Positions 7,876 through 44,910 of a stretch of 64,000 nt of DNA are shown in pieces. Position 1 is the first letter of the stretch. Every line of letters starts with the position of its first letter. The position numbers were made by a program, and so were the translations under genes. The notes below the pieces were generated by a model, which saw nothing but the letters and a program-made list of their open reading frames with translations, was not told the origin of the DNA and did no database searches. Source of the stretch: an uncultured Candidatus Saccharibacteria bacterium (GTDB taxonomy: Bacteria; Patescibacteriota; Saccharimonadia; Saccharimonadales; Saccharimonadaceae); the NCBI GenBank assembly GCA_947307225.1, contig CAMZIL010000002.1:1-64000 (forward strand), given 5' to 3'.

Positions 7876-8062
7876 ATAAAGCGTTTGAGCAGCTATCAAC
7901 TGCGAGCTGGTGGAAGAAAGACGTGTCTTAAAACTGCGAGTAGACAGGTCTAGTAGAACCATTCGTGAATCCGCGTGAGAGATGAACTGAGTGCCGAATT
8001 ATACAATTCGGAAATTGGATGGTACCGCTCCAAGGAGTTCCAATGAAAATTGGAATTTTTTT
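7876..8062 (+). promoter_or_regulatory. T-box leader of ileS
   Basis: Conserved T-box TGGTACCGC (8020-8028), AGCTGGTGG Stem I-like element, AUC triplet in GTGAATCCGCGTGAG as candidate Ile specifier, followed by a terminator and then ileS. Confidence 0.85.
8038..8062 (+). terminator. T-box intrinsic terminator
   Basis: TTCCAAT-GAAA-ATTGGAA-TTTTTTT. Confidence 0.85.
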
Positions 8063-8087
8063 GTTCAATAAGAAAGGAGAAGTGGGC

Positions 8088-10985
8088 ATGAAATACAAAT
8101 ATGGTGAACGTCGCCGCGCGAGTGAGTATGAAAAAGCGCTCGTTGAATATTGGAAGAAAAACAAGACGTTCGAAAAATCGGTCGACAATCGCGATGCGAA
8201 GAACTCGTATGTTTTTTATGACGGCCCTCCATTCATTACCGGCATGCCTCACCACGGCACTTTGTTGTCTTCCGTCGTAAAAGATGCGGTCCCGCGTTAT
8301 TGGACTATGAATGGCAAACACGTTGAGCGCCGTTGGGGCTGGGACTGCCACGGTTTGCCAGCTGAGAATTTTGTTGAGAAGCAGCTTGGCATTACGGATC
8401 GCCGCGATATTGGCACGAAGATTTCTCTTGAAGATTATATTATTAAGGCGCGCGAGTCGATGGTCGCTAACTCCGAGACTTGGCGCGGCACGATCGATCG
8501 CATTGGCCGTTGGGTAGATTTTGATAACTGCTATCGCACCATGAACAAGGACTTCATGGAGTCGGTCTGGTGGGCCTTCAAGACGCTCTACGAGAAGGGC
8601 AAGATTTATGAAGGCGAAAAGGTTTTGATGTATGATACGAAGTTTGCGACCCCTGTTTCTAAGGCCGAGGTCACGATGGACAACGATGCATATCAGACTG
8701 TTACCGACCCAAGTGCGTTCGTAAAGTTTAAACTTGTTGATTCTGATGAATATATCCTTGCCTGGACGACTACGCCTTGGACGCTTCCGGCCAACATGGC
8801 GCTCGCCGTGTCCAAGAAGCTCGAATACGGCCTCTATGACGTTGATGGCTGTAAGATGATTATGGCTAAGGTTTTGGCGAAAAAACTCGTTGGCGAGGAC
8901 GCTAAGGCCCTTAAAACGTATTCTGGCAGCGAGCTGGAGGGTTTGAAGTATGAGCCACTCTTTGCAATGGATGATGAGATTGCTAACGACAAGAACGCCC
9001 ATAAAGTTTGGACGGCAGATTTCGTCAGCGCTGAGGATGGTACCGGTATTGTCCATATCGCGCCGGCTTATGGTGAAGATGACTTTGCGCTTGGCAAGAA
9101 GAACAAGATCCCAACTCGCCACACGATTGATGATAATGGTTACTACTTCCCAGAATGGGCAGAGAAACTGCATGAGATTGGCGTCCGCGACACCGATGAA
9201 AACGGTCTTGAGGTCTGGGCGGCAAACAAGTTTATCGCGAAGTGCCTCGAAGAAAAGGGCATTATCTGGAAAATTGAATATATTAAGCACGAATATCCGT
9301 TCAATCCACGTAGCAAGCAGCGCATTATGTATCGCGCAATCCCAAGCTGGTTCTTCGACATTGAGGGCAGCAAGCCTTTGATGCTCGAGAAGAACGAGGG
9401 CATTAACTGGTTCCCGGAGCACCTAAAGCATGGCCGTTTCGCAAAGAATATTGAGCAGGCTCCGGACTGGAACCTCTCGCGCGATCGTTTCTGGGCAACT
9501 GCGATGCCGGTTTGGCGTGGCGATAAGGGCTCGCTCAAGGTAGTCGGCTCTTACGATGAGCTCTATGAACTATCCGGTGTACGTCTCGAGGACTATCATC
9601 GTCCATGGATTGATGAGGTAGAGTTCGATATCGATGGCGAACACTTCACGCGCGTCGACAAGGTGCTCGACTGCTGGTTTGAATCTGGCTCGATGCCATT
9701 CGCTCAGCTCCATTATCCATTCGAGAATAAGGAAAAGTTTGAAGCTAATTACCCGGCAGACTTTATCGTGGAATACGTTGGCCAGGTGCGCGCATGGTTC
9801 TATTATGTTCATGCGGTGAATACGGCGCTCTTTGGCGATAAGGCTTATAAGAATGTGATTACGACCGGTACTTTGGCTGGTAATGATGGCCGTAAGATGA
9901 GCAAGTCACTTGGTAACTATACTGATCCGAACGTTTTGATGGATCAATATTCGGCCGACGCGCTTCGCTTCGTGATGCTTTCTAGCCCAGTGCTAGCTGG
10001 TGAGGACTTTGCGTTATTAGATAAGGATGTTTCAGACGTCGCACGTAAGCTTACGATGATTTGGAACGTTTACGACTTCTTCACGATGTACGCAGAGGTT
10101 GACGGTTGGGATTCGAGAGATAGCTGGAAGCCGGAGGGTAAAGGTTTTGACAGCATTAAAAACCCACTCGATCGCTGGATTATCTCGCGCTTACATCAGG
10201 TAAAAGGCGAGATTATTGATGGCATGGAACAATATAATATTCCGAAAGCACTCGCAGGTGTCTTGCCGTTCGTTGACGATCTCTCAAACTGGTTCGTGCG
10301 TCGTTCGCGCCGTCGCTTCTGGAAATCGGAAGATGATGGTGACAAGGCAGAGGCATATTGGACGCTATATATGGTCTTGAAAAAGTTTGCGACAGTCGTG
10401 GCACCATTTGTGCCGTTCTTAGCGGAGGAACTATGGCAAAAGATGACTGGCGGCGAAGAAGGCGAATCGGTTCATCTTCTTGATTATCCTAGGAATGTTG
10501 AAGTTGATCAAAAAGTGCTTGACGATATGGCACGTTGCCGCGCGATCATTACTGAAGGTTTAGCAATGCGCATGGACCGCAACGATGAGTTTGGCCAGAT
10601 TAAAGTACGCCAGCCACTCGCAAGCCTGAAATATGGTGGCGAGAAACTCGATGAGTTTTATGAGCAGATTATCGCCGAAGAAGTTAACGTTAAGAGTGTC
10701 ACGCATGGCAAGAAGCTCGAACTCGACAAAAAGCTTACCGATGAGCTACGCGAGGAAGGCTTCGTGCGTGAACTTATCCGTTTCGTTCAGTCCGCTCGTA
10801 AAAAAGCTGGCCTGAACGTCGACGACCGTATTAAACTCAGCGTTTCCTGCGAAGTCCCTGCGGCCTACGTAGATACTTTGAAGAATGAAGTGCTCGCGAC
10901 TGAGCTAACAAATGATAACTATAGCTACGACGAGATTGTTAAGGTCGAAGGCGATAATGTCACGATTAGCCTAGAAAAAGCCTAA
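8088..10985 (+). CDS. ileS: Isoleucyl-tRNA synthetase
   Basis: PPFITGMPHHGTLLSSVVKD (HIGH), KMSKSLGNY (KMSKS), WDCHGLPAE; the ATG at 8088 after ggagaagtgggc is preferred, because the ORF-track start at 8019 lies inside the T-box. Confidence 0.96.
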   Translation: MKYKYGERRRASEYEKALVEYWKKNKTFEKSVDNRDAKNSYVFYDGPPFITGMPHHGTLLSSVVKDAVPRYWTMNGKHVERRWGWDCHGLPAENFVEKQLGITDRRDIGTKISLEDYIIKARESMVANSETWRGTIDRIGRWVDFDNCYRTMNKDFMESVWWAFKTLYEKGKIYEGEKVLMYDTKFATPVSKAEVTMDNDAYQTVTDPSAFVKFKLVDSDEYILAWTTTPWTLPANMALAVSKKLEYGLYDVDGCKMIMAKVLAKKLVGEDAKALKTYSGSELEGLKYEPLFAMDDEIANDKNAHKVWTADFVSAEDGTGIVHIAPAYGEDDFALGKKNKIPTRHTIDDNGYYFPEWAEKLHEIGVRDTDENGLEVWAANKFIAKCLEEKGIIWKIEYIKHEYPFNPRSKQRIMYRAIPSWFFDIEGSKPLMLEKNEGINWFPEHLKHGRFAKNIEQAPDWNLSRDRFWATAMPVWRGDKGSLKVVGSYDELYELSGVRLEDYHRPWIDEVEFDIDGEHFTRVDKVLDCWFESGSMPFAQLHYPFENKEKFEANYPADFIVEYVGQVRAWFYYVHAVNTALFGDKAYKNVITTGTLAGNDGRKMSKSLGNYTDPNVLMDQYSADALRFVMLSSPVLAGEDFALLDKDVSDVARKLTMIWNVYDFFTMYAEVDGWDSRDSWKPEGKGFDSIKNPLDRWIISRLHQVKGEIIDGMEQYNIPKALAGVLPFVDDLSNWFVRRSRRRFWKSEDDGDKAEAYWTLYMVLKKFATVVAPFVPFLAEELWQKMTGGEEGESVHLLDYPRNVEVDQKVLDDMARCRAIITEGLAMRMDRNDEFGQIKVRQPLASLKYGGEKLDEFYEQIIAEEVNVKSVTHGKKLELDKKLTDELREEGFVRELIRFVQSARKKAGLNVDDRIKLSVSCEVPAAYVDTLKNEVLATELTNDNYSYDEIVKVEGDNVTISLEKA

Positions 10986-13677: not shown

Positions 13678-15270
13678 ATGCTAAAACAAACAAATATCAA
13701 ATTTAAACGGAGGTTGACGGTAGCTGGCCTAGCGGCAATAGCGATTGCAGCGCTAATACCGTTCTCCTCTAGCTCGGCATGGGGGCCGGAGAATCGTAAG
13801 ACTTTTACGAATAAAAGTCCTGCAGATTATCCAGTCTTTAACTCGATTACCGACAACGCCGGTGTGGGCGACGAACGCAACTTCGTTCGTATCAAAGAAG
13901 TCGGCACGAGTGGAAAATATGTCGACACGGTCAACGTCACGGCTGGCAAGGAGTATGAGGTTTATATCTACTTCCACAACAATGCCAAGACGAGCCTCAA
14001 CAAGACTGCCGATGGCAAGCTAGGCCCAGGCGTCGCAACTCAGGTGAAAGTATCTACGGGTCTTTCCGCCTGGACTATTAACTCATCCAAGAAGATTAAA
14101 GTTAGTGGCGTGATTTCGTCCTCTAATACTAATCCAGCTTCCGTTTGGGATGAGGCGTACCTTACTACTTCCTCTAAAGACGATATTGTTCTTAAGTATG
14201 TAACTGCTTCTGCAAAGATTCATAACAGTTTCGAGGCAAACAATTCCGTACTTAGCGATAAGTATCTCTTTAGTAGCGAAGGCACATATATTGGCGTGAA
14301 TAAACTAAACGGCTATATTCCTGGCTGTGCAGAATACTCCGGCTATATTACATATCGCATTCGTGCTGATGTAGCAAAATCTACGATTAGCAAGACCGTT
14401 TCAAAAGATGGCAAGAACTTCTATGAAACTGTCGACGCAAAACCTGGCGACACGCTTACTTACAAGGTTGTCTGGAAGAACACTGGTACGCTCGATCTTA
14501 CGAACGTAACTTTCCACGATAAGCTTCCAACTGGCGTTACGCTAGTCAACGGCACTACGATGCTTTACAACAACTCCAATCCAAATGGCGTAAAGATGTC
14601 AGATTCGATTGGTAAAACTGGTTTCAAGACCGGCCTTTATGGCAAAAATACAACTGCGACGATTACTTATAAAGTAACCGTAAACAAAGACGCTGTAGCA
14701 AAGAAAGATTGTAATTCGAAGACTGCATTTACGAATAAAATCTTTGCTGACTACAACGTTGGTTCGACTTCTGGCGTGGGTGAGGTATATGATAGCTCCA
14801 CCATTTATGTAACCCGCGTTTGTGAGCCTGAAAAGAAAGAGCCATGTAAGCCGGACGATAAGGACTGTATCTGTAAAGAGAATCCAAAGGATCCAATTTG
14901 CGAGGAGCCAAAGACTCCATGCAAAGAAGGTGATCCGGAATGTCCTGGTGACACCAAGTGTGATCCAAACGACAAGGAATGTATCTGTACGGAAGATCCG
15001 AAGAACCCAATTTGTGAGGAACCTTGCAAAGAAGGTGATCCGGAATGTCCAGGTGACGACGACGAATGTGACGACGACGACGTCGATTGTATCTGTAAAG
15101 AAGATCCAACCAATCCAATTTGTAATCCGCCAATTCCAAAGACTGGTCCTGGCGAGATTGCCTTGGCAATTGTTGCAGTAGTCTGTATTGCAACTGGCGG
15201 TATCTACTGGTATCGTAGCCAAAAAGACCTTGCGACGATCGAGAAGGGTCTCGACAAGGGTAAAAAATAA
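13678..15270 (+). CDS. Secreted surface protein: DUF11-like repeat domain, Cys-rich stalk, IPKTG sorting-type signal
   Basis: Signal peptide, DUF11-like GDTLTYKVVWKNTGTLDLTNVTFHDKLPTGVTLVNG, repeated CICKE(N/D)PK(D/N)PICEEP, C-terminus IPKTGPGEIALAIVAVVCIATGGIYWYRSQK. Confidence 0.8.
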   Translation: MLKQTNIKFKRRLTVAGLAAIAIAALIPFSSSSAWGPENRKTFTNKSPADYPVFNSITDNAGVGDERNFVRIKEVGTSGKYVDTVNVTAGKEYEVYIYFHNNAKTSLNKTADGKLGPGVATQVKVSTGLSAWTINSSKKIKVSGVISSSNTNPASVWDEAYLTTSSKDDIVLKYVTASAKIHNSFEANNSVLSDKYLFSSEGTYIGVNKLNGYIPGCAEYSGYITYRIRADVAKSTISKTVSKDGKNFYETVDAKPGDTLTYKVVWKNTGTLDLTNVTFHDKLPTGVTLVNGTTMLYNNSNPNGVKMSDSIGKTGFKTGLYGKNTTATITYKVTVNKDAVAKKDCNSKTAFTNKIFADYNVGSTSGVGEVYDSSTIYVTRVCEPEKKEPCKPDDKDCICKENPKDPICEEPKTPCKEGDPECPGDTKCDPNDKECICTEDPKNPICEEPCKEGDPECPGDDDECDDDDVDCICKEDPTNPICNPPIPKTGPGEIALAIVAVVCIATGGIYWYRSQKDLATIEKGLDKGKK

Positions 15271-15288
15271 GCATATAGAACTCCTTTA

Positions 15289-15327
15289 AAGTAGCACCGG
15301 TCGGGTATCCCGGTGCTACTTCTTTTT
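15289..15327 (+). terminator. Intrinsic terminator
   Basis: AAGTAGCACCGG...CCGGTGCTACTTCTTTTT. Confidence 0.85.
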
Positions 15328-15384
15328 ATGCTTGAAAGACAAGCGATTTTTTGCTATAATATGCGGAGTAATAAAAGGAATTTT

Positions 15385-15696
15385 ATGAAAAAAGCAGTCG
15401 TAAAGATTGGCGGCAAGCAGTACGTTGTCGCTGAAAAAGAGACCCTCCGTGTGGACCTCCTCCCGGAAGGAACTAAAGATCTCGCTCTCGATGCTTTACT
15501 CGTAATTGACGGCGACAAGACCACCGTTGGTGAGCCTACCGTCAAAGGAGTTAAGGTTAAGGCGAAGGTCGTAGAAGCAAAGGTAGCTGGCGACAAGGTT
15601 CGCGTTATCCGCTATCACTCCAAGAAACGTGTCCATACTGAGACTGGTCACCGCCAGAAGTATTCGGAAATCGAAATCGAAAGTATTGGAAAATAA
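15385..15696 (+). CDS. rplU: 50S ribosomal protein bL21
   Basis: MKKAVVKIGGKQYVVAEKETLRVDLLP...YHSKKRVHTETGHRQKYSEIEIESI; ATG at 15385. Confidence 0.92.
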   Translation: MKKAVVKIGGKQYVVAEKETLRVDLLPEGTKDLALDALLVIDGDKTTVGEPTVKGVKVKAKVVEAKVAGDKVRVIRYHSKKRVHTETGHRQKYSEIEIESIGK

Positions 15697-15724
15697 CAAA
15701 AAACTCCCAAAAAGGGAGTTTTTT
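15697..15724 (+). terminator. Intrinsic terminator after rplU
   Basis: AAAAAACTCCCaaaaaGGGAGTTTTTT. Confidence 0.85.
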
Positions 15725-15792
15725 GGTGCTGCTTATGTTATTATATAAGCATAAATAGTAAGGCTTCAGAAGTGAGGCCAGCGGAGGTAAAA

Positions 15793-16356
15793 ATGAGTAA
15801 AAAGAGAAGCGCTGCTGCTGCGTTCATCGTTTTGGGCGTAGTTGTCTTGGGACTTGCTGCTGCTGTTTATGCGAAATACGTTTCGACGATTCAGGCTACG
15901 GGCGAGATTTCAGTCGCGAAATGGGCATTTACGTCCGACAACACTGACGGTGGAACCGTTGAGTGTGTATTAAGCAAGACATACAACGCAGCTACGCTAG
16001 TAGCCGATAAGATTGCGCCTGGTACGTCCGGCAAGTGCCCGATTGTAGTATCGAATGAGAATACTGAAGTTGGCATTCGCTATACGATTACTCCAAGCAC
16101 TGATAGTGCAAAACCAGTACACCTAAAGTTCTATACGGACGAAGAGCACACAACGGAGTTGACTAGCGGCGACTCTATTACTGACACGTTGAGGCCACAG
16201 GAAACCAGCCCCGAAGTGTATGTATATTGGTACTGGCCATATGAGGACGATCCTAGCACGGCCGCATATGATGAGGTCGATACTAATGACGGTGAAACCA
16301 AGACCGACATGACGATTACCTTCGATATTACTGGCACTCAGGTCAAGCCAGAATAA
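15793..16356 (+). CDS. TasA/camelysin-like secreted protein (gene A of surface cluster)
   Basis: Short signal-anchor followed by AVYAKYVSTIQATGEISVAKWAF and C-terminal VYVYWYWPYEDD...YDEVDTNDGE..MTITFDITGTQ, as in TasA/CalY-type proteins. Confidence 0.65.
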   Translation: MSKKRSAAAAFIVLGVVVLGLAAAVYAKYVSTIQATGEISVAKWAFTSDNTDGGTVECVLSKTYNAATLVADKIAPGTSGKCPIVVSNENTEVGIRYTITPSTDSAKPVHLKFYTDEEHTTELTSGDSITDTLRPQETSPEVYVYWYWPYEDDPSTAAYDEVDTNDGETKTDMTITFDITGTQVKPE

Positions 16357-16370
16357 TAAAAATATACTTT

Positions 16371-16442
16371 GTGGAGACTTTTAGTCTCCACATGGACAAT
16401 GAATGAACAAATTGATTGGCCATGCGGAGACTAAAAGAGGAG
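16371..16442 (+). promoter_or_regulatory. Mutually exclusive hairpins preceding the second gene of the surface cluster
   Basis: GTGGAGACT-TTT-AGTCTCCAC (16371-16391) versus CTTTTAGTCTCCaCATGG (16378-16395) pairing with CCATGcGGAGACTAAAAG (16420-16437), abutting SD AGAGGAG. Confidence 0.6.
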
Positions 16443-16444
16443 TA

Positions 16445-17176
16445 ATGAAAGAGCAACAAGACAAAGACAACAAGGGTTTAATTGCGGCCGTAGTCGTATT
16501 AGTGATAACGGTCGGTGTTTTGTTGTGGCTCCTCTTCAAGCCGATGTCCAAACCGGATAAAATCGAGACCGGAAATGTCGACGTTTTTGATATTCGGATT
16601 GGTTGTATTTGCGAGGGCGAGGACTGCGCTAAAGATAAAGACGGCTTTATACCCGATTTGACGCCTAGCAAGAGAGAACGGGGCGAGTACAGGGAAGGAA
16701 AGATTAACGGCGAGACGGACACCGACGTAGATGACGACGGAATTGTTTATGTTGACGATAAGAATGGCTCATATGTCTATCAGAAGAATTTGGCCATTTT
16801 TGAAAACGCTGCGTTTGAATATACGGACAAGATTACGCCTGGCGTATCGAATTCTTATCGTTTCAAGGTTCACAATGAGACGAGCGGCTCGATTCGCTAT
16901 AATATCGTGTTCTCGGAAAAGTCTGAATATGACATCAACATGCTTTACAGACTGAAGCGTGGCGATGATTATGTGGTCGGCAGCGACTCACAGTGGGTGA
17001 GAGCGGCTGAGCTGGCGTCAGCAATGAAGAATTTGTCTAGCGATGGCGTCGATAGTTATACGCTGGATTGGCAATGGCCATATGAGAGTGGTAGGGATGC
17101 GCTAGATACGGAAATTGGCGAAAAGATGACTTCCAAGTACAGCTTGGGCATAAAAATTAACTTCGAGGAAATATAG
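16445..17176 (+). CDS. TasA/camelysin-like membrane-anchored protein (gene B)
   Basis: N-terminal TM, then GNVDVFDIRIG and VHNETSGSIRYNIVFSE; ends YTLDWQWPYESGRDALDTEIGEK, sharing the W.WPYE..D..DT signature with gene A. Confidence 0.6.
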   Translation: MKEQQDKDNKGLIAAVVVLVITVGVLLWLLFKPMSKPDKIETGNVDVFDIRIGCICEGEDCAKDKDGFIPDLTPSKRERGEYREGKINGETDTDVDDDGIVYVDDKNGSYVYQKNLAIFENAAFEYTDKITPGVSNSYRFKVHNETSGSIRYNIVFSEKSEYDINMLYRLKRGDDYVVGSDSQWVRAAELASAMKNLSSDGVDSYTLDWQWPYESGRDALDTEIGEKMTSKYSLGIKINFEEI

Positions 17177-36644: not shown

Positions 36645-37769
36645 TTAGTAGTAGTAATAGGATCTTTTGCTTTCGACAATATCTTCGTTTTCGACGAAGA
36701 TCGTAATTAGGCTCAGTACCGCGACAATTACGGCGCCGATGATCGCTACGTGTCCCCAGTACATAAACCCGAAGGTCATTGTAGCCGTGGAGGCAATGAG
36801 CCAGACGTAGGCTACTAAGCTTCTAGCGGTCGATATAGCGAAATGCCCGTCCTCTTGGAGGAACGACGTGATGTCGTAGCGCCCTGTGAGGTGCCAGATC
36901 GCCGTAATGATGTCTTTAATGATTATGATCGCAACGCAGAAGAACATAAGAATACTCGTTCCGTTGTTGCCGTTAATCTTGACATCGCTTTTCCAGACTA
37001 TATAGCAGAGCGCAATGCTATTACTGGCGAATAGATACTTTACGATGAAAGTATCAAGCCAACAGAAAGCTTTGTGTGCCTTTTCGTCTGAGAGATAGAA
37101 GAAGCTGTTGAGTGCCAGTTCTACTATAATGGCGATTCCGGCTCCTGCGGCGATTGGAAAGCCGCAAGTTGACACTAAGAGTAGGCAGAACGGTGCGAAT
37201 ATTGCGAGGCCTAATCTCCAGAGCGCCAGATAGCAGCACGCGCCGATCTCGCGGATTGTTGATCGCTCTTTGGCGGGTATCTCGGCTATCTCTTTTGGCA
37301 TTTTTAACCATTTCGGGTTCCACTTTTGCGCGACCAGAATGATGGTGCGTGCAAGCTCATAGAACGTAGCGATTACTATGATGAGCCATGGAATAACTTG
37401 CCACTGGACATCGATTTGCCATGCTGAATGATGAGCTAATGTGGCCATGTATGCGAATAAGATGGAGAAAAAGTAGGCAGTCAGTTTAATGATGGCGCCT
37501 ACCTTGTAGAGTTCATCCTTTTGCGGGCACCAATAGTGTGCAGCGGGGTGAAAATCTACGAAAAACCAAAAACCGCATGCGAGAAACCTCGCGATCTCTG
37601 CGACGACAACCGCGCAGAGCAGGTAGTGTCCAGCGACACTTGAGCCAAAGATCATTGACCTCATTAAAACTACTACTACTATCACGATTGCCGTCAGGAT
37701 TTCAAAGACTCCTGAGCGTTTTTTCTGTACCATCTGTGTAATTGCTGATAACAATAACATCCATATCAC
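36645..37769 (-). CDS. Multi-TM protein, paralog of the neighbouring CDP-alcohol phosphotransferase without its active-site motif
   Basis: Co-linear with 37884-38951 (AEIARFLACGFWFFVDFHPAAHYWCPQKDE versus ADIFRFFVRGSWYYAPSHSAAHRRNPSRDH). Confidence 0.65.
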   Translation of the reverse strand: MIWMLLLSAITQMVQKKRSGVFEILTAIVIVVVVLMRSMIFGSSVAGHYLLCAVVVAEIARFLACGFWFFVDFHPAAHYWCPQKDELYKVGAIIKLTAYFFSILFAYMATLAHHSAWQIDVQWQVIPWLIIVIATFYELARTIILVAQKWNPKWLKMPKEIAEIPAKERSTIREIGACCYLALWRLGLAIFAPFCLLLVSTCGFPIAAGAGIAIIVELALNSFFYLSDEKAHKAFCWLDTFIVKYLFASNSIALCYIVWKSDVKINGNNGTSILMFFCVAIIIIKDIITAIWHLTGRYDITSFLQEDGHFAISTARSLVAYVWLIASTATMTFGFMYWGHVAIIGAVIVAVLSLITIFVENEDIVESKRSYYYY

Positions 37770-37883: not shown

Positions 37884-38951
37884 TTAAGTTTGGAGCGCCT
37901 TCTGGAGGCGTCGGTAATCGACATAAACGCTGATGGCACTGAGTAACGCTACGATGAAGATCATGATTACGCCAAGGATCGTCATATAGAGGTTAATAGT
38001 ACCGGTAGGAATGGACAATGCGATGGCGGTTGAGAGCAGCCAAGCGCAAATTCCGACCATGCGGATTTTGTCGATCAGGCTTGCGCCGATGCCGCTCGGG
38101 ATTTTGCGCCCGTTAGTGAAGAACCAGATAAAGAACAGAACGTCTCTTGTAAAAGCAATTGCAAAGAAAATTGCAGTAGAGATAAGAACTGCCCAGTCAT
38201 CGGTTGCGACGCTATTGCGGTAGAGTAACCAAATGAAAGCCACGGCATTCGGGACAAAGATGATCTTGTCTCCGAGCGGATCGAGGTATTTGCCAACCTT
38301 CGTGATACTGTTTGTGTGTCGCGCAATGTAGCCGTCGACAGAGTCGGTAGCGATTGCGAGAATCATCACGGTGGTAGCAATAAGGTTGCTTTTGGTTCCG
38401 AACGATTGCGTCATGTAGATGTGCGGCATGATGAGTGAAATTCCTATTCTTGTGATGCTGATCCAGTTTGGCGCGCCAATTCTGCCACCAGAGCCGACGA
38501 GCCAGTCTGCGTTGTATTTGTGCATTGTGTGCAACAGACAACGGAAGGTCTCGACGATAGTGGCGACGATGATGACGTACCAGAGGCAGCTGCGGATGCA
38601 GAGCAGGAAAACTGGTTGGTCGCCGAGTTGGAGCTCGGGTAGTTTGGTCAGTAAGAGTAGGAAAAGCGCAATGATTTTGATGCAGCCAGCAACAGCAGCA
38701 TTATGATCTCTGCTGGGGTTGCGGCGGTGGGCGGCGCTATGTGATGGTGCGTAATACCATGAGCCACGGACGAAGAAGCGGAAGATGTCCGCAAGAACGA
38801 CAATGGCGATGAAGTACCAGGCTGCTTTGCAAGCTACCAGTGGATAGAAGAATATGACGCCGAAATCACAAAGGAGATCGGCGAACTCGAGGTAACTTGT
38901 GCGCTTTGCTGCACTTCGGAAAAAATTCCTGAGGTTTTGCCAAGTAAGCAT
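37884..38951 (-). CDS. CDP-alcohol phosphatidyltransferase family protein
   Basis: Exact D-x2-D-G-x2-A-R-x8-G-x3-D-x3-D motif: DSVDGYIARHTNSITKVGKYLDPLGD. Confidence 0.85.
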   Translation of the reverse strand: MLTWQNLRNFFRSAAKRTSYLEFADLLCDFGVIFFYPLVACKAAWYFIAIVVLADIFRFFVRGSWYYAPSHSAAHRRNPSRDHNAAVAGCIKIIALFLLLLTKLPELQLGDQPVFLLCIRSCLWYVIIVATIVETFRCLLHTMHKYNADWLVGSGGRIGAPNWISITRIGISLIMPHIYMTQSFGTKSNLIATTVMILAIATDSVDGYIARHTNSITKVGKYLDPLGDKIIFVPNAVAFIWLLYRNSVATDDWAVLISTAIFFAIAFTRDVLFFIWFFTNGRKIPSGIGASLIDKIRMVGICAWLLSTAIALSIPTGTINLYMTILGVIMIFIVALLSAISVYVDYRRLQKALQT

Positions 38952-39100
38952 TTATATCATCTCCTTTAAATGTGCGCGATTAACGGCAACGATCCCAAAA
39001 ATACGTGTGTTTATTGTAGAATAAAAATGCTGTTTAGTCAAGGTTTGGAATTGCTGACCATAAGTGGTAAAATAGTAAAAAGCTTTGGAGGAAATTTTTT

Positions 39101-41746
39101 ATGTGCGGTATTGCTGGCTGTTTCGGCTACGATGACGTGAAAGACATTCTTGGAAAAATGACCGCCGCGATGGTACATCGTGGTCCTGATGGTAATGGTG
39201 AGACGAGCCTAGTCGATGGCGGCGTCAAGATCGGCCTTGCGCATCGCCGCTTGGCAATTATTGACCGCGCCGCTGGCAAGCAACCGATGAAGTCGGCAAA
39301 TAATCCAGATTACGAAATTATTTACAACGGTGAGGTCTACAACTACCTCGAGCTCAAAGAGGAGCTTTTGGCGGAGAATCCAAAGCTTAAATTCCGCACA
39401 AACGCCGATACTGAGGTTGTCCTCGAGGCCTTCATTCAATGGGGCGACAAAGCTTTTGATAAGTTTAATGGCATGTTCGGCCTTGCGATTATGAACCGCA
39501 AGAAGGGCGAGGTGACGCTTGCGCGTGACCACTTTGGCATCAAGCCGGTCTACTATTACGAAGATGGCAAGAAGGTTATCTTTGCTTCTGAGATCAAGAC
39601 GATGCTCGCTTCTGGCGTAGTAAAGACTGAGCCGAACGACAAGATTATCTATCGTTACCTAAAGTTCCGCGTTCAGGACGACACGAATGAGACTTTCTTT
39701 ACAAATATTTACCGCCTCATGCCGGGCGAGATGATGACCATCAACAAGAGCGGCTCGAAGCGTAAGATGTATACGAATCTCCGCGAGGAATTGATTGAGC
39801 TCGCAAAGCATCCAAAGGCTTATAGCGCTGAGGAAGCCAAGGAATACGGCGCTCGCCTCGATAAGGCTGTACGTATGCGCTTGGTCGGCGAGGTGCCTGT
39901 CGGCACGTCGCTTTCTGGTGGCCTCGATTCTTCATCGGTAGCAGCGCTCATTGCGAAGAACCTCGAAGAAGACAGTAAAAATAAGGAACTCGAGTCGGTT
40001 GGTACGCGCCAGAACACCTTCTCAGCAGTTTTCCCGAACCTCAGCAACGACGAGGAAGTATATGTCGATGCGTTGATTAATAAGTATCCAAACAAGATCA
40101 AATCTCACAAGATTAAGCCAACGCCGAAGACCTTCCTAGAGGATTTGACGGATTTTGTGCGTACGCAGGAAGAGCCAATTATCAGCACTGGTCCATATGC
40201 GCAGTATGCTGTGATGCGTGAGGCTTCAAAGTACGTGACGGTCTTGCTCGACGGCCAGGGTGCTGACGAGATGATGGCGGGTTACAACCCTTATTACTAC
40301 GTCTATCTAAACCAGCTCAAGAGCCGCAAGCAGTACAAGCGCCTTCTCGAAGAGACGAGCAAGTCCGGCGACATCGTAAAGAAGATTTTGCGCAGCAAAC
40401 GTAACAAGTTGAAGCCGATTACGAATCTCATGCAGCCGGAATTTGCAGAGAAGTATACCGACGAAAAGATGGTTGTTATTAATAATAACCTTAAGATGCG
40501 CTTGCTTGATGACATCTTTAAGCATAGTTTGCCATCCCTGCTTCGCTACGAGGATCGCAACACGATGCGCTTCAGTCTCGAGGGGCGCGTACCATTCATC
40601 GATAAAGAGTTGCTCAAATATCTCTTTAGTCTTGATGAAGCCGCGATTATCCATGGCGGCTGGAACAAGAACATTCTCCGCGAGTCAATGAAGGGTATTT
40701 TGCCAGAGAAGATTCGTGCACGTCGCAACAAGATTGGTTTCACGACTCCAGAAGGTGAATGGTTTAAAGAGATTCATAAAGATCTTGAGAAGATTCTTGC
40801 CTCCGATGAATTCGCACATCGTAAATACTTCAATCAGCTAGAGGTACTCCGCGAGTTCAAGCTCGACGAAAAGGGCAAGGGCAGTTATGGTTCGATGGCC
40901 TTCTGGCGCATCATTAACGTTGAGCTTTGGCTCCGTGAATTCTTCGACGAAAAGCCAGATGAGAATGCGCCAAAGCCAGAAGAGCTTGGCTATGGCCCGA
41001 ACGACAAGAAGCAGGCTGACATTAAATCCGATGTGAATAACAAGGTCTATACGCGCTATATGCTTCGCACGGAGCTCGTGACGCCAGAGACGAAGCTCGA
41101 TGATTATATCAATCGCTACGTCGGCGCTTTCGCGAAGACGATGAGCAAGGAAGTAGGTTCCAAGAAATGGCAGCTCTATATCAGTGAAAAGATTATTGCG
41201 ACGATGCAAGGCCGCTCGTACTTCCTATGGGACGTCGATGCGCGCTGGAGCGCTCGCGTACTTAGTCGCTTTGTTCATCGTACGCCGGCTGGTATTGGCC
41301 TCGGTAATCCTGCAACGATGGAGCTCGCATTGCGTGAGGCTGGTACGCCAAGAATCTTGCTCGCTACGGTTGCGAGCGCCGCCGGTAAAGCAGTAGGCAA
41401 GCGCGGTGTCTTTTATAACGTTGCTGGCGCAAACGTACGCGCGATTGACGGTCCAACTTCGTATTCTGCCTATCCAGCAAACGTTTCGGCGAAGTTACCG
41501 CCAAAGGATCCAGATAATGTTGCTGAGCATATCACGGTTTTGATTCGCGAGAATGCAAAGATCGCAAAGACTCTGCGCGATAACTTTGAAGGCGTCGTAG
41601 TGATCGATTCGAACGATATTGGCCGCAACATCCTAGGTAAGGCTTGCACGGATGAAGATGCGCTTCTTGCCTCGAAGTTCGCAGATAACCCATTTGGTCA
41701 GGCTCGCCAGCTCACGCCAATGGCGATTGTCGTAGAGAAAGACTAG
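39101..41746 (+). CDS. asnB: Asparagine synthetase (glutamine-hydrolysing) fused to a CofE-like (F420 gamma-glutamyl ligase) domain
   Basis: MCGIAGCFGYDD N-terminal nucleophile domain, SLSGGLDSSSVAALIA PPi loop; C-terminal ~240 aa ATMELALREAGTPRILLATVASAAGKAVGKRGVFYNVAGANVRAID...KLPPKDPDNVAEHI...VVVIDSNDIGRNILGKA. Confidence 0.85.
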   Translation: MCGIAGCFGYDDVKDILGKMTAAMVHRGPDGNGETSLVDGGVKIGLAHRRLAIIDRAAGKQPMKSANNPDYEIIYNGEVYNYLELKEELLAENPKLKFRTNADTEVVLEAFIQWGDKAFDKFNGMFGLAIMNRKKGEVTLARDHFGIKPVYYYEDGKKVIFASEIKTMLASGVVKTEPNDKIIYRYLKFRVQDDTNETFFTNIYRLMPGEMMTINKSGSKRKMYTNLREELIELAKHPKAYSAEEAKEYGARLDKAVRMRLVGEVPVGTSLSGGLDSSSVAALIAKNLEEDSKNKELESVGTRQNTFSAVFPNLSNDEEVYVDALINKYPNKIKSHKIKPTPKTFLEDLTDFVRTQEEPIISTGPYAQYAVMREASKYVTVLLDGQGADEMMAGYNPYYYVYLNQLKSRKQYKRLLEETSKSGDIVKKILRSKRNKLKPITNLMQPEFAEKYTDEKMVVINNNLKMRLLDDIFKHSLPSLLRYEDRNTMRFSLEGRVPFIDKELLKYLFSLDEAAIIHGGWNKNILRESMKGILPEKIRARRNKIGFTTPEGEWFKEIHKDLEKILASDEFAHRKYFNQLEVLREFKLDEKGKGSYGSMAFWRIINVELWLREFFDEKPDENAPKPEELGYGPNDKKQADIKSDVNNKVYTRYMLRTELVTPETKLDDYINRYVGAFAKTMSKEVGSKKWQLYISEKIIATMQGRSYFLWDVDARWSARVLSRFVHRTPAGIGLGNPATMELALREAGTPRILLATVASAAGKAVGKRGVFYNVAGANVRAIDGPTSYSAYPANVSAKLPPKDPDNVAEHITVLIRENAKIAKTLRDNFEGVVVIDSNDIGRNILGKACTDEDALLASKFADNPFGQARQLTPMAIVVEKD

Positions 41747-43834: not shown

Positions 43835-43881
43835 TTTCAGAATCCGCCATATTGGCGGCTTTTTGTTGGTATAATTTTGGT

Positions 43882-44910
43882 ATGAAAAGCGCAAAGAGAG
43901 CGGAAATCTCATACGAGAGAAAACCGGGTAAAATTCATTCATTTTTCGCACTAAAGTTTCATGATGGCGACGAGGATCGCGCTAAGGTGGAGGCAATTGA
44001 AGCGGCACTAAATAAGGCTGGTGTCGAGATAACCTTGATGGCGAGAGACGTCGAGAAGTGGGGCAAAGCAGAAATCCCGGTTGGCAAGACTTTAATGAAG
44101 GATTTTGCTTTCCCGGCGATGAAGCAATGCGACTGCAATATTATTGAATTCAGCGAAAAAGGCGTTGGTCTCGGCATGAATGGCGGCTTCTGCTATGCGG
44201 CCGGTAAGCCGATTTATGTGATTGCGAAAAAGGGCAGTGATATTTCGACAACAATGGCAAATATCGCTACGGAAGTGATTTTCTATGAAAAGCCGGAGGA
44301 CCTCATCGCTCCGTTTAAACGTATTGTGGCGGGCTTTCCGCGCGTTATTTTGGCGTCTAGCTCGAAGTACCGTAAACAGATGATGATGGATGCGGGAATT
44401 CCATTTGAGGTGGTCGTAAGCGACGCTGACGAGACTCCAGATGAAGCGAAATCTCTGAAAGATCAGTTGGCGGAAATTGCGATGCGCAAAGCGATGGTAG
44501 TATTTGAAGCTACAAAGAAGCGTGGTCGCAGGCTAATAATTGCTGCCGATCAAAACATTGCGTTTGAGAATGTGCTTTACGGGAAGCAGAAGACCGTCAA
44601 AGCCGCACGTGAGTTGCTATGCAAGATGCGCGGTTCGGATGAGATCTATTCTTATACTGGTAATGCAATTATCCTTGCCGATGGCGATAAGATTTTGCAG
44701 ACCGTGAATCTGACCGATACGGCGAGACTGGTGATGGATGATTTGTCGGACGACGAAATCGAGGAATTCTTGAAGCTCGACACTTGGAAAACAGTTTGCG
44801 GCGCAGCAAATATTAATAACTCATTCTTTGTACGACTAAAAGAAGGACGCCTTTCGACGGCGCAGGGTATGACTTTAGAGTACGCAAAAGAATTGTTGCG
44901 CGATCTATAG
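43882..44910 (+). CDS. Fusion of nucleoside 2-deoxyribosyltransferase-like domain and Maf-type NTP pyrophosphatase
   Basis: N-terminus SFFALKFHDGDEDRAKVEAIEAALNKAGVEITLMARD...CDCNIIEFSEKGVGLGMNGGFCYAAGKPIYVIAKKG; C-terminus RVILASSSKYRKQMMMDAGIPFEVVVSDADETPDE (Maf). Confidence 0.75.
   Translation: MKSAKRAEISYERKPGKIHSFFALKFHDGDEDRAKVEAIEAALNKAGVEITLMARDVEKWGKAEIPVGKTLMKDFAFPAMKQCDCNIIEFSEKGVGLGMNGGFCYAAGKPIYVIAKKGSDISTTMANIATEVIFYEKPEDLIAPFKRIVAGFPRVILASSSKYRKQMMMDAGIPFEVVVSDADETPDEAKSLKDQLAEIAMRKAMVVFEATKKRGRRLIIAADQNIAFENVLYGKQKTVKAARELLCKMRGSDEIYSYTGNAIILADGDKILQTVNLTDTARLVMDDLSDDEIEEFLKLDTWKTVCGAANINNSFFVRLKEGRLSTAQGMTLEYAKELLRDL

Follow-up and report, generated by a model that had tools for sequence, protein, structure and literature searches.

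We have found a gene in which an asparagine synthetase B (AsnB)-type glutamine-dependent amidotransferase is fused to a homologue of the F420-0:glutamate ligase CofE. It lies in a 64,000-nucleotide stretch of DNA from an uncultured gut Candidatus Saccharibacteria bacterium (contig CAMZIL010000002.1), referred to throughout as the window. Sequence comparison places its C-terminal domain in a distinct branch of the CofE (PF01996) superfamily. This branch, which we name CofE*, is related to CofE but is not an F420-0:glutamate ligase. The AsnB and CofE* parts probably work on one molecule, which is not F420. Judged from the trees of its domains, the fused gene has crossed between phyla, with the one actinobacterial sequence giving no direction. 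A search of the open-access literature found no paper on the AsnB-CofE* fusion, although it may have been described elsewhere.

Saccharibacteria retain few biosynthetic genes. A conserved two-activity enzyme common to these bacteria and an actinobacterium points to a modification worth keeping, perhaps at the envelope or at the site of host contact. The CofE superfamily gains a branch and, with it, a genetic handle on its substrate, in that whatever the ligase half makes is expected to serve the amidotransferase half as substrate. The labels that family models assign to such proteins, asparagine synthase and F420 ligase, are likely misleading.

Structure and integrity of the fused gene

The fusion gene (Table 1) is a single unbroken frame from its ATG. 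Because the same open frame recurs in eight Saccharimonadia genomes and one actinobacterial contig, the fusion is real; an assembly artefact is ruled out, as is a frameshift merging two adjacent genes, the risk named in the original prediction. In both domains dN is far below dS (for CofE*, for example, 0.04 against 1.2-1.5), as calculated from the pairs with a dS estimate and with dS near saturation. Domain profiles and profile-profile comparison agree with the prediction that a genuine AsnB is joined to a genuine CofE homologue.

Table 1 Features of the AsnB-CofE* fusion gene in the window
Feature	Coordinates	Strand	Basis or remark
AsnB-CofE* fusion gene, 881 aa	39101..41746	+	8 Saccharimonadia orthologues and 1 actinobacterial orthologue
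GGAGG ribosome-binding site, 9 nt ahead of ATG	39087..39091	+	
AsnB-type glutamine-dependent amidotransferase domain, aa 1-615	39101..40945	+	GATase_7/GATase_6, Asn_synthase, TIGR01536
Cys2, glutaminase nucleophile	39104..39106	+	MCGIAG start, family-conserved
SGGLDSS ATP-pyrophosphatase loop	39914..39934	+	
QEEPIISTGPYAQY, clade-specific acceptor-site segment replacing E. coli YDVTTIRAS	40166..40207	+	Alignment
Pro/Glu/Lys-rich interdomain linker, aa 616-643 (about 28 residues)	40946..41029	+	Least conserved against G003/G025
CofE* domain, aa ~644-881 (238 residues)	41030..41743	+	Divergent F420_ligase superfamily
SEKIIATMQGR, counterpart of the CofE SKVVS..EGR motif	41183..41215	+	
AIDGP	41441..41455	+	Asp invariant in 28/28 CofE* sequences
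VVVIDSNDIGRNILG	41594..41638	+	Asp at aa 836 aligns with Af-CofE Asp150 (TDTNGR), invariant in 28/28
DNPFGQARQLTP, counterpart of the CofE MGE...TP segment	41684..41719	+	

In profile searches the AsnB part matches GATase_7 (E=1.8e-40, 138 bits) and Asn_synthase (E=2.6e-65), and it scores 390.6 bits against TIGR01536, above the cutoff of 267.1. Against TIGR03104 (NAGGN amidotransferase) it reaches 308.7 bits, under the cutoff of 570.1. The predicted Cys2 nucleophile and SGGLDSS loop are both present, and the AsnB is complete as claimed, although it ends near residue 615 rather than at about 635. An acceptor segment of the YDVTTIRAS type found in E. coli and human asparagine synthetase is absent from the window protein, which has QEEPIISTGPYAQY instead; in the alignment, the whole clade of CofE*-linked AsnBs described below carries QEEPxISxxPYAxY where the E. 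coli and human enzymes have YD(V/I)TT(I/V)RAS. We took the YDVTTIRAS-like segment to hold the Asp-binding D and R whose loss marks enzymes amidating something other than Asp (PMC8554201). The same work reports that AsnO and AsnH of B. subtilis, from a clade without proven mDAP activity, can make asparagine and complement an Asn auxotroph.

Other genes of the window were recorded around the fusion. Two adjacent membrane-protein genes on the minus strand (36645-37769 and 37884-38951), the second coding for a CDP-alcohol phosphatidyltransferase that is extended at its N-terminus, separate a YjeF-like gene from the fusion in the window and in G012, and are absent in G038. A Maf-like nucleotide pyrophosphatase is encoded at 43852-44910, its N-terminal stretch weakly resembling nucleoside 2-deoxyribosyltransferase (PF05014, below cutoff).

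CofE*, a branch of its own in the CofE superfamily

Against PF01996 (F420_ligase), the window domain searched alone scored weakly (17.7 bits, E=0.0027; gathering cutoff 25), the fusion of G002 scored 32.2 bits, and standalone CofE* proteins mostly fell between 25 and 50 bits. The window domain had no match to TIGR01916 (CofE) or TIGR04132 (FolC2); standalone CofE* reached at most 32 bits against the TIGR01916 cutoff of 180.65, and CofE* gave about 20 bits or less against the TIGR04132 cutoff of 350 and stayed far under that of PRK13293. PDB sequence searches with the domain or a seven-row profile returned no CofE match, so the link to CofE needed a profile-profile comparison, in which hhalign aligned the CofE* family profile with classical CofE at 99.0% probability over most of the domain. 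An AlphaFold model of the domain, built on five close sequences, had a mean pLDDT of 39.7, too low for use. The profile-profile match bears out the CofE-like assignment proposed for the C-terminus; homology to CofE stands, whereas identity with CofE proper gives way to a shortened, separate branch of the PF01996 superfamily. The four peptides cited for the prediction are all present, with direct alignment to CofE for KLPPKDPDNVAEHI and VVVIDSNDIGRNILG only; MELALREAGTPRILLATV sits within an insert specific to CofE*, and GVFYNVAGANVRAID at the end of that insert.

The motifs of the family are SEKivAI.QGR, AIDGP, IDANDxG..(V/I)LG and DNPxGQ..EQTP, and they include invariant Asp, Asn and Thr-Pro positions. 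From the invariant Asp that aligns with the metal Asp150 of Archaeoglobus CofE to xG[E/Q] there are about 31 residues in CofE* versus 57 in classical CofE-like proteins, about 26 fewer, and the CofE* C-terminus falls short of the counterpart of the F420-stacking Arg234. The AGID motif, in which we take Asp109 to be a metal ligand, is out of register. We speak of CofE* as a putative ligase because of this displaced motif and the shortening after Asp150. Deazaflavin contacts in CofE are made by G153-C155, R234 and a domain-swapped hairpin (PMC10861534), and the stretch missing from CofE* may be this hairpin.

The displaced AGID motif and the missing residues would also suit a catalytically dead CofE* acting as a regulatory or dimerization module for AsnB. 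We regard this as distinctly improbable, given that standalone CofE* in many genomes keeps the invariant Asp, Asn and Thr-Pro, that dN is far below dS, and that AsnB of the linked clade was never found without CofE*.

Distribution and transfer between phyla

Six of the eight genomes with an intact fusion belong to the genus of the window and two to other genera of its family. The fusion was also found on public genome contigs JAHKZT010000019.1, JAKSSX010000001.1, DGRN01000015.1 and CAMJQQ010000001.1, three of which carry the title Candidatus Saccharibacteria; these four matches probably duplicate four of the eight genomes. With a profile of the fused domain, standalone CofE* of about 230 residues was identified in another 22 of the 389 Patescibacteria genomes sampled, a 23rd (G268) being marginal. 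Among the 389 genomes, CofE* occurred in 24, AsnB in 66 and both in 10, a modest association (Fisher p=0.003); our main evidence of linkage is adjacency, fusion and an exclusive AsnB clade rather than these counts. Every gene absence reported here is subject to MAG incompleteness. No relatives were detected in viral contigs scanned with two CofE* alignments, and plasmids yielded no CofE*, the AsnB matches there reaching at most the AsnB part.

A further full fusion occurs on MT835656.1 (L201), which is filed as 'Bacteriophage sp.' and is a 73% GC segment of actinobacterial chromosome with the gene order IF-2, ribF, pnp, M16 protease, dapB, HAD, fusion, dapA-like frame and RNase J. The protein encoded at 14006-16762 is 55% identical to the window protein over its whole length, and GC3 is 0.98 or more in both halves of the gene. 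In trees of each domain it nests inside the Saccharimonadia fusions, beside the window group (support 97/98 and 95/90), a placement that argues for passage of the fused gene between phyla. The fusion is thus not confined to Patescibacteria.

Unfused pairs and an exclusive AsnB clade

In five other Patescibacteria lineages, separate AsnB and CofE* genes lie adjacent and co-directional, in both gene orders. AsnB comes first in G400, where it overlaps CofE* by 4 bp and Wzy_C follows, and in G303, G504 and G152, with gaps of about 4-14 bp; the order is reversed in G138 (3 bp). As unfused neighbors occur in five lineages and both orders, the pairing appears functional and not accidental. In G504 (L134, ~9140-10971), the AsnB gene beside CofE* is split into two overlapping frames by a frameshift or a sequencing error. 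Fusion partners vary, since CofE* of G225 is joined to adenylate kinase (L136, 8076-9488), by position probably within a ribosomal-protein operon.

All 14 linked AsnBs fall into one exclusive clade among 88 AsnB sequences (SH-aLRT 98) with no unlinked AsnB inside, and a careful 46-row tree supports this clade at 100/98. The 88-row tree was built from matches at E up to 1e-60 in the 389 genomes together with the linked AsnBs, leaving out the long-branched G072. No CofE* was seen near 36 newly fetched AsnB regions within flanks of about 1 kb. The nearest unlinked (sister) AsnBs, those of G356, G441 and G423, lie in surface-polysaccharide gene clusters, as judged from reading frames. CofE* is often present without AsnB of the linked clade, in many genomes, and the CofE* partners of that clade do not form a single clade in their tree. 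An AsnB clade found only with CofE*, and a CofE* that is often alone, suggest that AsnB depends on CofE* and not vice versa, and that AsnB acts on the CofE* product.

Some CofE* genes adjoin Wzy_C, VanW, LysM/M23, LysM/CHAP or SpoIID genes. Together with the position of the actinobacterial fusion between dapB and the dapA-like frame, these neighbors fit the cell-wall substrate suggested in the original prediction: CofE* would attach Glu or Asp to a peptidoglycan precursor, and the residue so added, or mDAP, would be amidated by AsnB. AsnB homologues do amidate mDAP or D-Asp in Gram-positive walls (PMC8554201, PMC4155827). However, neighboring genes vary by lineage, no mur or murT/gatD gene was seen beside the fusion, and the actinobacterial locus is a single one, so that we hold this special case of the ligate-then-amidate scheme proposed below to be rather unlikely.

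F420, asparagine and folate

Genome-wide searches of 16 CofE*-bearing genomes found no F420 synthesis gene (cofH/FO synthase, cofD) above cutoff. The lack of other F420 genes, remarked in the original prediction for the window, therefore extends to whole genomes for FO synthase and CofD. F420 glutamylation is ruled out, as carrier genomes showed no F420 synthesis genes and the F420-site segments are missing from CofE*.

In G000 and six further fusion genomes, no asparaginyl-tRNA synthetase (AsnRS) match reached the TIGR00457 cutoff; by length the matches resemble AspRS/LysRS, and GatB is present. Asn-tRNA is thus presumably made via GatCAB, which leaves translation with no need for free Asn. 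This argument does not cover every lineage, since in G123, G138 and G303 a protein of about 440-450 aa scores higher against TIGR00457, though below cutoff, and G504 has a true AsnRS match. The claim that the substrate is something other than free Asp receives indirect support from the clade's lack of YDVTTIRAS and from the absence of AsnRS alongside GatB in G000 and most fusion genomes.

The AsnB half might instead be an ordinary asparagine synthetase, with CofE* ligating its Asn or Gln-derived Glu and the fusion serving as a substrate-supply device. AsnB releases Glu, which CofE-type enzymes consume. The score above the TIGR01536 cutoff and the complementation of an Asn auxotroph by B. subtilis AsnO/AsnH (PMC8554201) are in keeping with such a device. 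We nonetheless find it doubtful in view of QEEPIISTGPYAQY standing in place of YD(V/I)TT(I/V)RAS, the lack of a need for free Asn in translation in most carriers, and the surface-polysaccharide setting of the nearest unlinked AsnBs.

Simple replacement of FolC by CofE* is not supported, as the distribution of FolC is not complementary: FolC and the AsnB-CofE* pair occur together in G002 and G138, and neither CofE type occurs in many of the relatives listed as having no FolC. A gut contig filed as phage (MT838774.1, L202; 1-2892) carries three consecutive bacterial genes, fhs, fchA (FTCD_C) and standalone CofE*, which may link CofE* to folate. Classical CofE-like genes were seen in sister species (L054 of G020, 8172-8990; L055 of G004, 7996-8742), with a sub-cutoff best match to TIGR04132; in both they are convergent to a YjeF-like gene that in G038 directly precedes the fusion. 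This classical type and the fusion occur together in 0/151 genomes.

We know of no reason to amidate folate tails, as would be expected were CofE* a folate-type gamma-glutamyl ligase (FolC2-like) and AsnB the modifier of the tail. The FolC distribution and the single folate-linked contig also weigh against such an activity, which seems to us very improbable even though Chlamydia CT611 replaces FolC (PMC1971073), the fhs-fchA-CofE* row exists, and the classical genes match TIGR04132 best, with the G004 and G020 copies adjoining the gene that precedes the G038 fusion.

Proposed mechanism

The reading that we favor, with somewhat less than even confidence, is by analogy a bifunctional ligate-then-amidate enzyme. 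CofE* would use a nucleoside triphosphate to activate the carboxylate of a small acid or precursor and would join an amino acid, most probably glutamate, to it. The AsnB domain would hydrolyze glutamine at Cys2, channel the ammonia, adenylate a carboxylate of the CofE* product and convert it to a carboxamide, leaving an amide-capped glutamyl conjugate. We infer the order of steps, glutamate as the added residue and the identity of the acceptor, for which a wall precursor, a folate-type molecule and a small solute are candidates. Hints from gene context diverge and are single observations (dapB/dapA in the actinobacterium; Wzy_C, VanW, LysM and SpoIID; fhs-fchA).

More tentatively, these proteins may form a new bifunctional class, in which a shortened ligase of the CofE type would work with an amide-capping amidotransferase to build an amidated glutamyl conjugate (an envelope precursor or a small-molecule tag) in reduced-genome epibionts, the fused gene having been exchanged between Saccharibacteria and Actinomycetota. 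The latter is the phylum of the known hosts of Saccharibacteria.

The ligate-then-amidate proposal draws on systems in which a ligase and an AsnB-type enzyme are known to act in turn. On the D-Asp crossbridge AslA is followed by AsnH (PMC4155827), and the osmolyte NAGGN is made by Ngg and then AsnO (PMC8070244). The proposal draws also on Chlamydia CT611 (COG1478), a CofE homologue that replaces FolC and so serves a non-F420 acid (PMC1971073). Counting against it are the displaced AGID motif and the shortening of CofE*, the variety of its fusion partners, the scatter of the CofE* partners over more than one clade, and the ability of B. subtilis AsnO/AsnH, which do not have the E. coli motif, to make asparagine.

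Comparison with known systems

CofE and the FbiB N-domain (PF01996, TIGR01916; PDB 2phn, 7uld) share with CofE* the profile-profile match and the elements SEK..QGR, P.dP, (I/T)D.N and G[E/Q]...TP in equal order. In contrast to them, CofE* has an insert before AIDGP, the shorter Asp-to-xG[E/Q] spacing and an end before the R234 counterpart; its carriers lack F420 genes, and its scores are far under the TIGR01916 and PRK13293 cutoffs. The AsnB half resembles AsnB/AsnO/AsnH (TIGR01536; PDB 1ct9, 6gq3, 7ylz) in Cys2, the SGGLDSS loop, full length and a score above cutoff, but its acceptor segment differs from that of E. coli and human AsnB, and it is fused or operonic with CofE*.

In the NAGGN system (AsnO of TIGR03104 with Ngg), the gene of an AsnB-type amidotransferase likewise adjoins that of a peptide-forming enzyme, although Ngg and CofE are enzymes of different types and the window AsnB scores under the TIGR03104 cutoff. 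FolC2 (TIGR04132; Chlamydia CT611) shows that the superfamily glutamylates non-F420 acids (PMC1971073), but the classical CofE-like gene that sister species carry separately matches it more closely than CofE* does. Lactococcus AslA and AsnH offer the same succession of an amino-acid ligase and an AsnB homologue, there on the D-Asp crossbridge, with the difference that AslA is an ATP-grasp enzyme and not CofE-like (PMC4155827).
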